Assembly (NCBI GenBank): GCA_017437045.1
Contig: JAFSBY010000043.1
Coordinates: 62,001-126,000, forward strand
Source: Alistipes sp.
GTDB taxonomy: Bacteria; Bacteroidota; Bacteroidia; Bacteroidales; Rikenellaceae
DNA: 64,000 nt
Reading direction: 5' to 3'
In this document: piece by piece, positions 37,918-59,619 of the stretch
How positions within the stretch are numbered: the first letter of the stretch is position 1
Layout of the letters: each line of letters opens with the position of its first letter
Position numbers and translations under genes: made by a program
Notes under the pieces: model-generated
Told to the model about the DNA's origin: nothing
Databases searched by the model: none
The model's input: only the letters and a program-made list of their open reading frames with translations

Positions 37918-37949
37918 TTTGCACAATTCGATTCCATCCGCTATATTTG
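37918..37949 (+). promoter_or_regulatory. Promoter of the trp leader and trpB2
   Basis: TTTG (37918-37921), 20 bases, then TATATTTG (37942-37949) match the Bacteroidales -33 and -7 consensus at proper spacing. Predicted transcription would begin around 37955, just upstream of the leader peptide ATG. Confidence 0.78.
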
Positions 37950-37971
37950 TCATAGTGAAACCGATTGAAGC

Positions 37972-38034
37972 ATGATCCGAAACTATTTTATGCAGGCTTG
38001 GTGGTGGCGTCCACTTGACTCTCGTAGACAATGA
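37972..38034 (+). CDS. trpL: trp leader peptide (three tandem Trp codons)
   Basis: A 20-codon frame begins ATG at 37972 and ends TGA at 38032-38034. It encodes MIRNYFMQAWWWRPLDSRRQ, with TGG TGG TGG at 37999-38007; three consecutive codons for one of the rarest residues are hard to explain except as a tryptophan-sensing leader. It sits just downstream of a consensus promoter and immediately before mutually exclusive hairpins ending in a T-run, then trpB2. Attenuation by ribosome stalling at Trp codons is the obvious role. There is no gene product function apart from translation itself. Confidence 0.85.
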   Translation: MIRNYFMQAWWWRPLDSRRQ

Positions 38035-38107
38035 GGGGCCATCGGCCGTGTATAAAATCCACTGATACACATCCCGTTGTTTGCGAGAAGCGACAGCGGG
38101 ATTTTTT
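38022..38107 (+). promoter_or_regulatory. Transcription attenuator: antiterminator and terminator ahead of trpB2
   Basis: The terminator stem is cccgttgtttgc (38073-38084) with gcgacagcggg (38090-38100), one bulge and G.T pairs, followed by a and six T (38101-38107). Bases 38022-38036, which overlap the leader stop codon, can pair over about 14 positions with the terminator's left arm (roughly 38074-38086), forming an antiterminator. A ribosome stalled at the Trp codons (37999-38007) leaves 38022-38036 free to pair; a ribosome at the stop codon covers it and lets the terminator form. A 6-bp hairpin (gtgtat/atacac, 38048-38070) lies between. Confidence 0.8.
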
Positions 38108-38150
38108 CATTTTTTTATCCCAGCAAAAACCAACAAAAACAATACGCGCT

Positions 38151-39509
38151 ATGAAGAGCAAGAAATTCATCCTTCCCGAAACATTGATGCCGACCGCATG
38201 GTACAACATCGTAGCCGACATGCCGACCCCGCCCCGTCCCTATCTCGATCCGCGCACCCGCGCCGAAGTAACGGTGGCCGATCTGGAGCGTCTGATTGCC
38301 TCCGAATTGGCTCGTCAGGAACTTTCGAGAGAACGCTATATCGAGATTCCCGAAGAGGTACAACAGATCTATCGCATTTGGCGACCCGCGCCGTTGGTGC
38401 GCGCTACGGGGTTGGAAAAAGCCCTCGATACGCCCGCCAAAATCTTCTTCAAAAATGAGGGTGTATCGCCTGTCGGATCGCACAAACCCAATAGTGCCGT
38501 GCCGCAGGCCTACTACAATTTCAAGCAGGGTGTCAAGCGTCTGACTACCGAAACCGGAGCCGGACAATGGGGCTCGGCCTTGGCCTTTGCCGGACGCCAC
38601 TTCGGACTCGATGTCGATGTCTACATGGTCCGCGTGAGCTACGACCAAAAACCTTATCGCCGACTGATGATGCACACCTGGGGAGCATCGTGCTACTCCT
38701 CGCCCACCGATCGCACAGCTTCGGGACGTGCGGCATTGGGGCGCGACCCTCACTGCATGGGCAGCCTCGGGCTGGCCATTTCGGAGGCTGTCGAGGCGGC
38801 TTTGGCCGAGCCGGAGACCACTCGCTACTGTCTGGGCAGTGTCATGAACCATGTCTTGCTCCACCAGACCATCACGGGCGAGGAGGCCATTCGCCAGATG
38901 GAGATGGCCGAAGCCGAGGCCGATGTTATCATTGGCTGTGTAGGTGGAGGCAGCAACTTCGGTGGTATCGGATTCCCCTTCCTGCGCAAAAAGCTCTGCG
39001 AGGGCAAGCAACTGCGCGTCGTCGCAGTCGAGCCGGAAAGCTGTCCGAAGCTCACCCGAGGTACGTTTGGCTATGACATTGGCGATGTATCGGGCTATAC
39101 GCCGCTCATCCCGATGTATTCGCTGGGCCACGATTTCCAACCTTCGGCCATCCATGCCGGAGGTCTACGCTACCACGGTGCAGGATCCATCATCAGCCAA
39201 CTCCTGCACGACGGGTTGATCGAGGCCACATCGGTCGGTCAGACCGAGACGATGCGTGCCGGCATCCTCTTTGCCCGCACCGAAGGCATCATTCCGGCAC
39301 CCGAATCGACCCACGCCATCGCCGTGGCCATCCGCGAGGCGTTGCAGGCCAAGGAGGAGGGGCGCGAACGGACGATCCTGTTCAACCTCTCGGGACACGG
39401 AACGATCGACCTCTATGCATACGAGCAACACTTGGCCGGCAATTTGGTCGATTATCTCCCCTCGGACGAGGAGATCGCTCGCACCGCCTCGCAGGTCATT
39501 CGCCCATAA
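38151..39509 (+). CDS. trpB: Tryptophan synthase beta-like protein, TrpB2 type
   Basis: A 452-residue PLP enzyme from ATG 38151. TrpB2 features are clear: extended N-terminus (FILPETLMPTAWYNIVADMP), YIEIPEEVQQIYRIWRPAPLVRA, PLP-Lys112 in GSHKPNSAVPQAYYN, ETGAGQWGSALAF, GCVGGGSNFGG and a GHGTIDLYAYE end. TrpB2 converts indole (or phosphoserine/serine plus indole) to tryptophan, with weaker partnership to TrpA than TrpB1. It stands alone with no other trp genes near, and is preceded by a Trp-codon leader and terminator, showing that the cell treats it as a tryptophan biosynthesis gene. A stand-alone indole-salvage role is possible. Confidence 0.93.
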   Translation: MKSKKFILPETLMPTAWYNIVADMPTPPRPYLDPRTRAEVTVADLERLIASELARQELSRERYIEIPEEVQQIYRIWRPAPLVRATGLEKALDTPAKIFFKNEGVSPVGSHKPNSAVPQAYYNFKQGVKRLTTETGAGQWGSALAFAGRHFGLDVDVYMVRVSYDQKPYRRLMMHTWGASCYSSPTDRTASGRAALGRDPHCMGSLGLAISEAVEAALAEPETTRYCLGSVMNHVLLHQTITGEEAIRQMEMAEAEADVIIGCVGGGSNFGGIGFPFLRKKLCEGKQLRVVAVEPESCPKLTRGTFGYDIGDVSGYTPLIPMYSLGHDFQPSAIHAGGLRYHGAGSIISQLLHDGLIEATSVGQTETMRAGILFARTEGIIPAPESTHAIAVAIREALQAKEEGRERTILFNLSGHGTIDLYAYEQHLAGNLVDYLPSDEEIARTASQVIRP

Positions 39510-58155: not shown

Positions 58156-58833
58156 ATGCAACAAGATAATCAACTCCCCATCCGCGGTGCCATCTTCGAC
58201 ATGGACGGCACGCTGGTCGATAACAGTGCCGTACACACCCGCGCCTTTGCGCTGTTTTGCGCGCGCTACGACATCCAAGATTGGCAGCAGCGCATCGACG
58301 GATTCTTCGGCATGGGCAACGAGGAGATCATGCGCCGACTCTTCCCCGAGGAGGTCATCCGCAGACGCGGTGTCGAGGAGCTGGGGCGCGAGAAGGAGGC
58401 CCTCTACCGCGAGATCTATGCGCCTGAGATTCAACCTGTAACCGGATTGGTTCAGCTGCTCGATCTACTGCAAAAGGCCGGCATTCGGTGCGCCGTAGGC
58501 TCATCGGGATGTCGTGAGAATGTCGAATTTGTCTTGGAGAAGTGCCACATCGCCCCCTATTTCGAGGTCTGCATCTCGGGCGATATGGTCACTCGCTGCA
58601 AGCCCGATCCGGAGATCTATCTGACTGCAGCCGAAAAGTTGGGATTAACGCCCGCCGAGTGCATCGTATTTGAGGATGCACGGGCCGGCTTCGAGGCGGC
58701 TCGTCGAGCCGGTGCAGGGCGTCTGGTAGCCATCGCCACCACCCTGTCACGCTCCACGCTTGAAGAGGAGCATCTGGCCGACTGCGTGGTTGCCGATTTT
58801 GCTGAGATCCACAGCCTGCAACAACTACTCTAA
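58156..58833 (+). CDS. HAD-superfamily phosphatase/phosphomutase (beta-PGM-like)
   Basis: A 225-residue enzyme from ATG 58156. Motif I is FDMDGTLVDNSAVH, motif II AVGSSG, motif III K at CKPDPEIYLTAAEKLG and motif IV VFEDARAGFEAARRAGA. The cap-domain spacing fits subclass I of the HAD family, close to beta-phosphoglucomutase and phosphatases. It acts on a sugar phosphate or similar small molecule in the cytoplasm; the substrate cannot be told. It is divergent from the transketolase run and its 3' end overlaps the SDR gene by 9 bases. Confidence 0.9.
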   Translation: MQQDNQLPIRGAIFDMDGTLVDNSAVHTRAFALFCARYDIQDWQQRIDGFFGMGNEEIMRRLFPEEVIRRRGVEELGREKEALYREIYAPEIQPVTGLVQLLDLLQKAGIRCAVGSSGCRENVEFVLEKCHIAPYFEVCISGDMVTRCKPDPEIYLTAAEKLGLTPAECIVFEDARAGFEAARRAGAGRLVAIATTLSRSTLEEEHLADCVVADFAEIHSLQQLL

Positions 58834-59619
58834 CAGCCTTCTGACCCGCTTGCGTCGCACCACCCATCGGATCAGTGCGGAGGGGCAGATGCGGCACAAG
58901 GCCACACACAATTTGGTGAAAAAGCCGGGCAGGATGCGCTTTTTACCCCGCCACAAGGCGCGTAACGCACGGTGCGCGATCTGTTGAGGCCCGTGCATGA
59001 CACGCCAGAAAAGTAGGCGGCGGCGCATCCGCTCATCGAGGCGGTAGAAGGGGGTATCGACCGCACCCGGGCAGACCACCGTCACCACCACCCCATCGGC
59101 AGCCCACTCATCGTGCAGCGCCTCGGCAAAGCACTTCAAATAGCTCTTCGTAGCGGCGTAGAGCACGATCGAGGGATAGGGCATGTAGGCCGTAGCGGAG
59201 GACATGACGAGGATATGTCCTCGCTCTTTCCGAGCGCGCATGGCGGCCCCAAAGAGGCGGCAGAGCTGCGTAGTCACGCCACAATGCAACGCCAGCAAAC
59301 GCTCAATCTGTTCGGGCGTATGGGTCGCAAAACCGCCAAAGAGCAGTGCTCCGGCATTGCAGACAAGCGTACCGACCTCTAACTCCTTCTGCTCGGTCCA
59401 GGCAAAGAGCCTCCCGGCAGCCTGCTCCTCGGTCAGATCAACCCTTCGAGCCACCACCTGCGCACCCGTCGCAGCCACCTCCTCGACCAAGGCCTGCAAC
59501 GCCTTCGCATTGCGATCGACTACGATCACACCGGCATGGCTCTGCGCCAGCTCCAACGTGTAGGCGCGTCCGATTCCCGAGGCAGCACCGGTCACCAGGG
59601 CAAAATTATTTTTCTGCAT
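58825..59619 (-). CDS. Short-chain dehydrogenase/reductase (SDR)
   Basis: About 264 residues from ATG 59619. Classical SDR motifs: ALVTGAASGIGRAYTLEL (nucleotide binding), VDRN, NAG, VMSSATAYMPYPSIVLYAATKSYLKCFAEAL (catalytic Ser, Tyr and Lys). The C-terminal basic tail (RRLLFWRVMHGPQQIAHRAL, VRRKRVRRLLE) suggests membrane association, as in YqjQ/DltE-type enzymes. It is convergent with the HAD gene and divergent from the DUF486 gene. Substrate unknown. Confidence 0.9.
   Translation of the reverse strand: MQKNNFALVTGAASGIGRAYTLELAQSHAGVIVVDRNAKALQALVEEVAATGAQVVARRVDLTEEQAAGRLFAWTEQKELEVGTLVCNAGALLFGGFATHTPEQIERLLALHCGVTTQLCRLFGAAMRARKERGHILVMSSATAYMPYPSIVLYAATKSYLKCFAEALHDEWAADGVVVTVVCPGAVDTPFYRLDERMRRRLLFWRVMHGPQQIAHRALRALWRGKKRILPGFFTKLCVALCRICPSALIRWVVRRKRVRRLLE

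Follow-up and report, generated by a model that had tools for sequence, protein, structure and literature searches.

In Escherichia coli, transcription of the trp operon is governed by trpL, in which a leader peptide with tandem Trp codons and a protector hairpin are combined with mutually exclusive antiterminator and terminator hairpins. This form of attenuation is best known from phyla other than Bacteroidota, although trp leaders of Bacteroidetes may have been predicted in the attenuation survey by Lopatovskaya (2010) or in the review of Merino, Jensen and Yanofsky (2008). In Actinobacteria, attenuators have been predicted before trp operons and before trpB1EDGC, trpB2A and trpS, according to the accessible part of that study (PMC1262725). 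For Bacteroides thetaiotaomicron, long 5′ UTRs carry short ORFs (sORFs) reminiscent of leader peptides, and trp goes unmentioned in the available portion of the report (PMC7366714). Within the open-licence literature that we searched, we recognised no description of a trp attenuator in Bacteroidota or upstream of an orphan trpB2.

The role of the orphan trpB2_o of Pyrococcus horikoshii was called not yet identified in the text available (PMC1854888), and conversion of indole to Trp was reported for Thermococcus kodakarensis, which carries TrpB1 and TrpB2 (Hiyama 2014, as cited in the accessible part of PMC11085991). In a survey of amino-acid pathways in gut bacteria, genomes with TrpAB only (14 strains) are described as dependent on Trp or indole precursors, and no TrpB2-only variant stands in the part of its variant table open to us (PMC9026213). 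Here we describe a Trp-codon leader upstream of an orphan trpB2 in the window, by which we mean the whole 64,000-nt stretch of Alistipes sp. DNA analysed, and compare it with trpB2 and trp-operon leaders of the genus and its order. The locus very probably represents a ribosome-mediated attenuator that would turn on trpB2 when charged tRNA-Trp is low, for the making of Trp from scavenged indole and serine.

Results

Leader, antiterminator and terminator upstream of trpB2

Reading of the sequence upstream of trpB2 gave a predicted promoter, a leader, a spacer and a terminator in that order (Table 1). The initial annotation of this DNA had described a TTTG-N20-TATATTTG promoter, a 20-codon leader with three consecutive TGG codons and a T-run stem-loop just before trpB2, and all three were borne out by direct reading. 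The arrangement of TTTG and TATATTTG corresponds to the Bacteroidota −33/−7 promoter consensus, and the start of the TANNTTTG box lay 23–30 nt 5′ of the leader ATG in 15/15 loci of the genus.

Table 1. Positions of the predicted regulatory parts and of trpB2 in the window
Feature	Position	Strand	Description	Evidence
Predicted promoter	37918–37949	+	TTTG 37918–37921, 20-nt spacer, TATATTTG 37942–37949	Sequence
Leader ORF	37972–38034	+	MIRNYFMQAWWWRPLDSRRQ; ATG 37972, TGA 38032–38034; 20 codons and stop	Sequence
Control codons	37999–38007	+	Three consecutive TGG, leader codons 10–12	Sequence
Possible protector hairpin	38019–38037	+	CUCUCGU/AUGAGGG, arms 38019–38025 and 38031–38037; would hide segment 2	
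Segment 2	38020–38037	+	Antiterminator left strand; conserved core ACAATG 38028–38033; overlaps leader stop	Duplex, covariation
Spacer with small inner hairpin	38047–38070	+	GUGUAU...AUACAC, between segments 2 and 3	MFE fold
Segment 3	38072–38088	+	Partner of segment 2 (antiterminator) or segment 4 (terminator)	Duplex, covariation
Intrinsic terminator	38071–38107	+	Stem 38071–38080/38093–38102, T-run 38102–38107	Fold, covariation
trpB2	38151–39509	+	TrpB-like PLP enzyme, 452 aa	NF009057, TIGR01415, Pfam PALP

When the whole window leader was folded, the terminator formed. The annotation had paired bases 38022–38036 with the left arm of the terminator over ~14 positions, which proved essentially right: 14 consecutive pairs, with G-U counted, join 38020–38033 to 38075–38088, and an extension beyond a bulged A joins 38035–38037 to 38072–38074. 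The resulting duplex of segments 2 and 3 (2:3 duplex) reached −27.6 kcal/mol, compared to a shuffle mean of −14.8 kcal/mol, and none of 300 shuffles was as good. The window thus holds a leader ORF with clustered codons for the end product (TGG three times), an intrinsic terminator between leader and trpB2, and an antiterminator exclusive of that terminator, the last resting on the 300 shuffles and on covariation over 64 rows, which was weaker on 15 rows (see below). A T-box or known riboswitch reading was dropped for want of an Rfam match, as the scan of the window returned one tRNA only and no trp leader or T-box family at gathering score. Judged by eye, the small hairpin in the spacer seems to recur with other bases in close relatives, and it is possibly a pause hairpin.

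An orphan trpB2 in a genus in which no TrpA, TrpC or TrpE was found

The product of the gene downstream scored 688.6 bits against NF009057 (cut-off 366) and 588.4 bits against TIGR01415 (trpB_rel; cut-off 518.85), and the top of the best 80 named genomes listed for the TrpB2 alignment was mostly Bacteroidales. The gene lies outside any trp operon, as is characteristic of the TrpB2_o subgroup (Merkl 2007, PMC1854888), and is flanked by lepA, divergent, upstream and by lysA downstream. The statement in the initial annotation that no other trp genes are nearby holds, and it extends to the whole assembly (92.77% complete), in which the trpA, trpC and trpE families were not found either. TrpB2 was the single TrpB match of the window genome, so that the operon-borne trpB1 that accompanies TrpB2_o in 14/16 described members was not found here; its presence is not an absolute criterion in the accessible text (Merkl 2007, PMC1854888).

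Our pathway search covered the TrpA, TrpC (IGPS) and TrpE (anthranilate synthase N-domain) families; none of the three was found in any of the 37 genus genomes, four of which are 98–99% complete, and each was found in 14/14 control genomes. In view of these negative results, the cell is probably unable to make its own indole, and with no route to indole-glycerol phosphate TrpB2 most likely joins imported indole and serine. Judging from gene content, the supply of Trp by TrpB2 would therefore most likely be indole salvage rather than the last step of de novo synthesis.

A tryptophanase-family match was present in 29/37 genus genomes and was not detected in the window genome. High-scoring TnaA-family matches (E < 1e-140), none of which lay above the curated cut-off of the family, occurred in 5/16 TrpB2-bearing compared to 16/21 other genus genomes (Fisher p = 0.009, kinship uncorrected). 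Mutual exclusion of TrpB2 and tryptophanase in the genus is thus possible, and is offered as a lead only.

The attenuator could be real and TrpB2 serve some purpose other than Trp synthesis, for example serine deamination, with Trp starvation merely signalling a shortage of amino acids, a reading that we consider improbable. Serine deamination was indeed proposed as a second function of TrpB2, or some other, not-yet-identified one for the orphan trpB2_o of P. horikoshii, but the TrpB2_o enzymes of T. maritima and S. solfataricus are poor in that activity, as stated in the part of the paper available (PMC1854888). Moreover, the control codons of the leaders that we measured are Trp codons, the closest solved relatives of an alignment of the window gene and 14 homologues are TrpB chains (6hul, 4qys and 6hte), and the motifs GSHK and TETGAGQWG are retained, all of which argue against this reading.

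Leader conservation follows trpB2 within the genus

The proposal in the initial annotation stood or fell with conservation of the TGG run and hairpins in relatives with the same gene, and conservation was what we observed. We found the leader before trpB2 in 15/15 genus loci that had been located by protein search and had enough upstream DNA; the 16th locus retains only 32 nt upstream before the contig ends. According to our script, most Bacteroides-type, Prevotella-type and non-Bacteroidota TrpB2 loci lack such a leader.

A covariance model (R1) was built from the 15 genus leaders with terminator pairs only and fixed spacing, which favours matches of that spacing, and both searches with it were run under the stricter filters of Infernal, which lose weak matches. 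Among the 61 genomes for which TrpB2 was counted, 37 of them of the genus (16 with and 21 without TrpB2), R1 gave 15 strong matches (E ≤ 1.7e-23). All but one of the 16 TrpB2-bearing genus genomes held one of these matches, the exception being the genome cut at the contig end, and no strong full-length match was found in the 21 genus genomes lacking TrpB2. The best full-length match without TrpB2 (7.2e-5, in genome G017) shows no leader on inspection. Outside the 61 counted genomes there may be members of the genus that have TrpB2 and lack the leader.

Of the 65 matches that R1 gave at E ≤ 1e-6 on 180 genus genomes, 64, among them that of the window, were full length (E ≤ 4.6e-11); partial matches occurred in G026 (at E ≤ 1e-6), G036 and G136. 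The full-length copies, in 64 of the 180 genomes, all have a Trp-run leader; since R1 contains Trp codons, this partly reflects how the copies were found, and the 15/15 from the protein search is the independent count. By script, TrpB2 starts 12–65 nt past the element in 63/64 copies, and the remaining copy (L225) has the variant YYN in the search motif and an ATG in the same range; in three copies (L180, L183 and L227) the contig breaks off in the early part of trpB2 or after a short stretch. In 11 of 13 inspected weak R1 matches away from trpB2 in the 61-genome search no Trp leader was seen (these were terminators arising by chance, stretches of coding sequence or unclear cases), and the other two were different leaders, one Phe-rich (L176) and one rich in Leu, Ile and Val (L175).

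Comparison of leaders and antiterminators with shuffled sequences

Of 106 TrpB2 loci, 102 had 450 nt of upstream DNA. An ATG-started sORF with a run of Trp codons lay within the last 300 nt in 36/102 of these regions compared to 32/4080 dinucleotide shuffles, and such an sORF followed by a terminator was present in 31/102 compared to 2/4080. Together with the duplex shuffles for the window (0/300), these upstream-region shuffles ruled out a chance origin of leader and hairpins.

From the TrpB2 loci 35 leaders were picked by hand, accidental-looking sORFs with Trp runs being left out, and 32 were used for duplex and folding analysis after removal of one for which the script gave no terminator (L074), one whose hairpin overlapped the leader (L016) and one with a poor hairpin (L117). 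The 2:3 duplex was matched by at most 3/300 shuffles in 16/32 leaders and by more in the other 16. In a control with foreign terminator arms, taken from unrelated leaders, the leader's own arm was best in 12/15 genus leaders and in 2/17 others, and it was equalled by one or more foreign arms in 3/15 and 15/17, respectively; that the own arm is seldom best outside the genus is due in part to several lineages sharing similar arms.

Ribosome-masked folding separates stalled from terminating states

Transcripts were cut before segment 4 and folded with a ribosome placed at the last Trp codon, at the stop codon, or absent. Averaged over the 32 leaders, pairing between segments 3 and 2 amounted to 13.0 nt in the stalled state, 3.9 nt with the ribosome at the stop and 4.5 nt without a ribosome. 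The stalled-minus-stop difference was 9.11 nt compared to 3.95 nt for spacer shuffles (SD 0.64; the highest of 60 was 5.72), and the two states were separated by more than 3 nt in 28/32 leaders, the four with a difference of ≤3 nt being genus leaders (L006, L008, L009 and L011, 4/15). The predicted geometry is thus one in which a stalled ribosome would free, and a terminating ribosome would cover, the antiterminator strand.

The window leader gave 22.1 nt stalled, 6.2 nt at the stop and 22.1 nt without a ribosome, and its possible protector hairpin (−7.3 kcal/mol) was no better than shuffles (p = 0.34). Without translation the E. coli trp leader terminates. As the window fold is antiterminated in the absence of a ribosome and its protector does not surpass shuffles, termination of the untranslated window leader may fail, unlike that of the E. 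coli leader, and its state without translation may be read-through. Across the genus, a protector helix right after the Trp codons was detected in 37/64 copies at p ≤ 0.05 (mean −7.8 compared to −4.3 kcal/mol). The clade of the window has another, unremarkable hairpin, which is not a protector starting right after the last TGG. The full stall/antiterminate logic claimed in the initial annotation is supported by the leader, terminator, antiterminator and their conservation; the protector, left undescribed there, is clear in many relatives and not clear in the window itself.

Both helices covary and the antiterminator core keeps its distance from the Trp codons

We aligned the 64 copies (63 distinct rows) by fitting to the terminator only, the antiterminator helix not being used. 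Comparison of the trpB2 leaders for compensatory changes, which the initial annotation had proposed as a check, showed that both helices covary over the 63 distinct copies. In the antiterminator 84.1% of cells were paired and 53 cells were changed on both sides, with 0/500 shuffles reaching these levels on four of five measures and 70/500 on the fifth (pair types). None of the 63 distinct rows breaks any of its eight inner pairs, and breaks are frequent in the five outer ones. In the terminator 98.9% of cells were paired, and shuffles reached the observed values in 0/500 cases on paired cells, double-change cells and score, and in 1/500 and 4/500 on the remaining two measures. For both helices these shuffles ignore kinship, and slid versions that keep kinship score far lower. 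With 15 rows aligned, the antiterminator gave a weak signal (12/500 shuffles on paired cells and 141/500 on pair types) and the terminator a clear one.

The core [AG]CAATG lies 17–22 nt past the last TGG in 62/64 copies (33 at 19 and 22 at 20, SD 0.88), a range whose narrowness is partly set by method, as the script accepts cores only 10–30 nt past the TGG run and R1 prefers its own spacing. The two copies missed by the script (L222 and L224) carry one-base variants of the core. In the same 62 copies the distance from core to leader stop varies from −32 to +5 (SD 13.28), and the leaders measured have two to four clustered Trp codons. The core of the window is 20 nt past the last TGG, and the distance is 17–19 nt in four non-genus leaders that came from the protein search and were selected for their ACAATG-like core. 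Since the core occurs in differing reading frames or past the stop, it is the position in the RNA that is conserved and not the peptide. A stalled ribosome reaches ~12 nt beyond the first base of its A-site codon, and the spacing fits a ribosome on TGG whose front edge stands just short of segment 2. A near-constant core-to-TGG distance joined to a loose core-to-stop distance is what one would expect of a core that is read by a ribosome stalled at the Trp codons.

Translation of the leader might instead control trpB2 through Rho-dependent termination, translational coupling or a similar route, with the intrinsic terminator not serving as the switch. Nothing specific speaks for this reading, and it is rendered most unlikely by the covarying terminator stem with its T-run, by the presence of a mutually exclusive partner of that stem, and by a leader stop that bears no fixed relation to the core.

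Leaders of trp operons and other genes in the order

A Trp-run leader with a terminator was present upstream of trpE or trpB in 13/13 genomes of the order with trpE over the cut-off, and in all but one of the 13 a predicted antiterminator strand started 15–22 nt beyond the last TGG. Masked folding of these leaders gave 10.2 nt stalled, 2.7 nt at the stop and 1.4 nt without a ribosome; in two of the 13 the stalled and stop states lay within 3 nt of each other or in the opposite order (L125 close to even, L130 reversed). One genome (L135, G042:C131:3000-3800) has two Trp-run leaders in a row upstream of trpE. Five genomes that keep a leader-bearing trp operon (G038, G042, G043, G050 and G058) have trpB2 leaders as well. 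That the leader is a relic of the attenuator of a lost trp operon and no longer regulates in the genus, as the kindred leaders of canonical trp operons in the order and the failure to find trpA, trpC and trpE in the genus might suggest, is scarcely credible given this coexistence and given the covariation of two helices and the near-constant distance to the Trp codons, which point to selection that is still acting.

Leaders with other control codons were also observed. On the minus strand of contig C26 of the window's genome (L179), a Phe/Tyr-rich leader, MKRFYAYGFYYFFFANKRGA, and a terminator-like hairpin precede a pheA-type PDT gene (58626–59162), and this leader is likely a Phe attenuator. 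A genus relative (L175, G015:C10:255100-257050) has a Leu/Ile/Val-rich leader, MLNSLYIIVSLILVVLHR, with terminator arms that appear complementary by eye, before a confirmed ilvD; a search for ilvD in the genome of the window gave no match. At L176 (G008:C29:12650-14700) a Phe-rich leader, MMNFFAYAFFYFFFGTEKRGEIACVC, was recognised by eye ahead of a gene (241–1077) resembling the pheA-type gene of the window's genome. Together with the trp-operon leaders, these examples make attenuation by leaders look like a device of general use in this lineage, the trpB2 copy being one instance.

Discussion

The arrangement of parts suggests the following course of events, in which ribosome stalling, termination in vivo and the substrate of the enzyme are what we infer; the parts themselves, their conservation, covariation and spacing, and the gene content are what the sequences show. 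RNA polymerase would start ~15–20 nt before the leader ATG, with a ribosome following. At ample Trp-tRNA, the ribosome would reach the stop and cover segment 2, segments 3 and 4 would pair, and transcription would end before trpB2. At scarce Trp-tRNA, the ribosome would stall on the TGG run, leaving free segment 2, whose first paired base is 12 nt past the last TGG; the freed segment 2 would capture segment 3 and polymerase would read into trpB2, whose product would then condense indole and serine.

A broader reading is probable, if less firmly grounded than the attenuator itself. The Trp pathway of the genus would have shrunk to an orphan TrpB2, an attenuator of the trp-operon type would make it an indole scavenger inducible by Trp starvation, and the leader would mark bacterial orphan TrpB2 proteins as salvage synthases. 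A Trp-codon attenuator on an orphan trpB2 is independent evidence that its product supplies Trp. As TrpAB-only genomes are described as needing Trp or indole precursors and the accessible variant table of the gut survey lacks a TrpB2-only variant (PMC9026213), some of the bacteria predicted to be Trp auxotrophs may in fact use indole. Leaders of a Bacteroidales lineage are hereby added to the attenuation mechanism, together with their alignment and covariance model.

The mechanism is a known one, namely classical trp attenuation by every tested feature except a clear protector in the window; what is new, within the literature that we searched, is that it stands on an orphan trpB2 and occurs in this lineage. 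The leader resembles E. coli trpL in its tandem Trp codons, in its mutually exclusive terminator and antiterminator and, in many relatives, in the protector, and differs from it in having a single orphan trpB2 as target, a stop that moves relative to the core, and a weak protector in the window. Like the trpB2_o of P. horikoshii, trpB2 here lies in a genome without other trp genes, in the terms of the text available (PMC1854888), but the cases of P. horikoshii and T. kodakarensis are archaeal and the accessible parts of their descriptions mention no leader-peptide attenuator. With the predicted actinobacterial attenuators the leader shares UGG codons, terminator and antiterminator, and one of these precedes a 'trpB2A' operon of C. 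diphtheriae; that case belongs to another phylum and joins a gene named trpB2 to trpA in a biosynthetic operon, in the part of the study accessible (PMC1262725). Finally, the trp-operon leaders of the order have the same plan of Trp-run leader, terminator and similar antiterminator start, but they precede trpE or trpB of canonical operons and pair mostly through GTGAG/CTCAC-like strands rather than through ACAATG.
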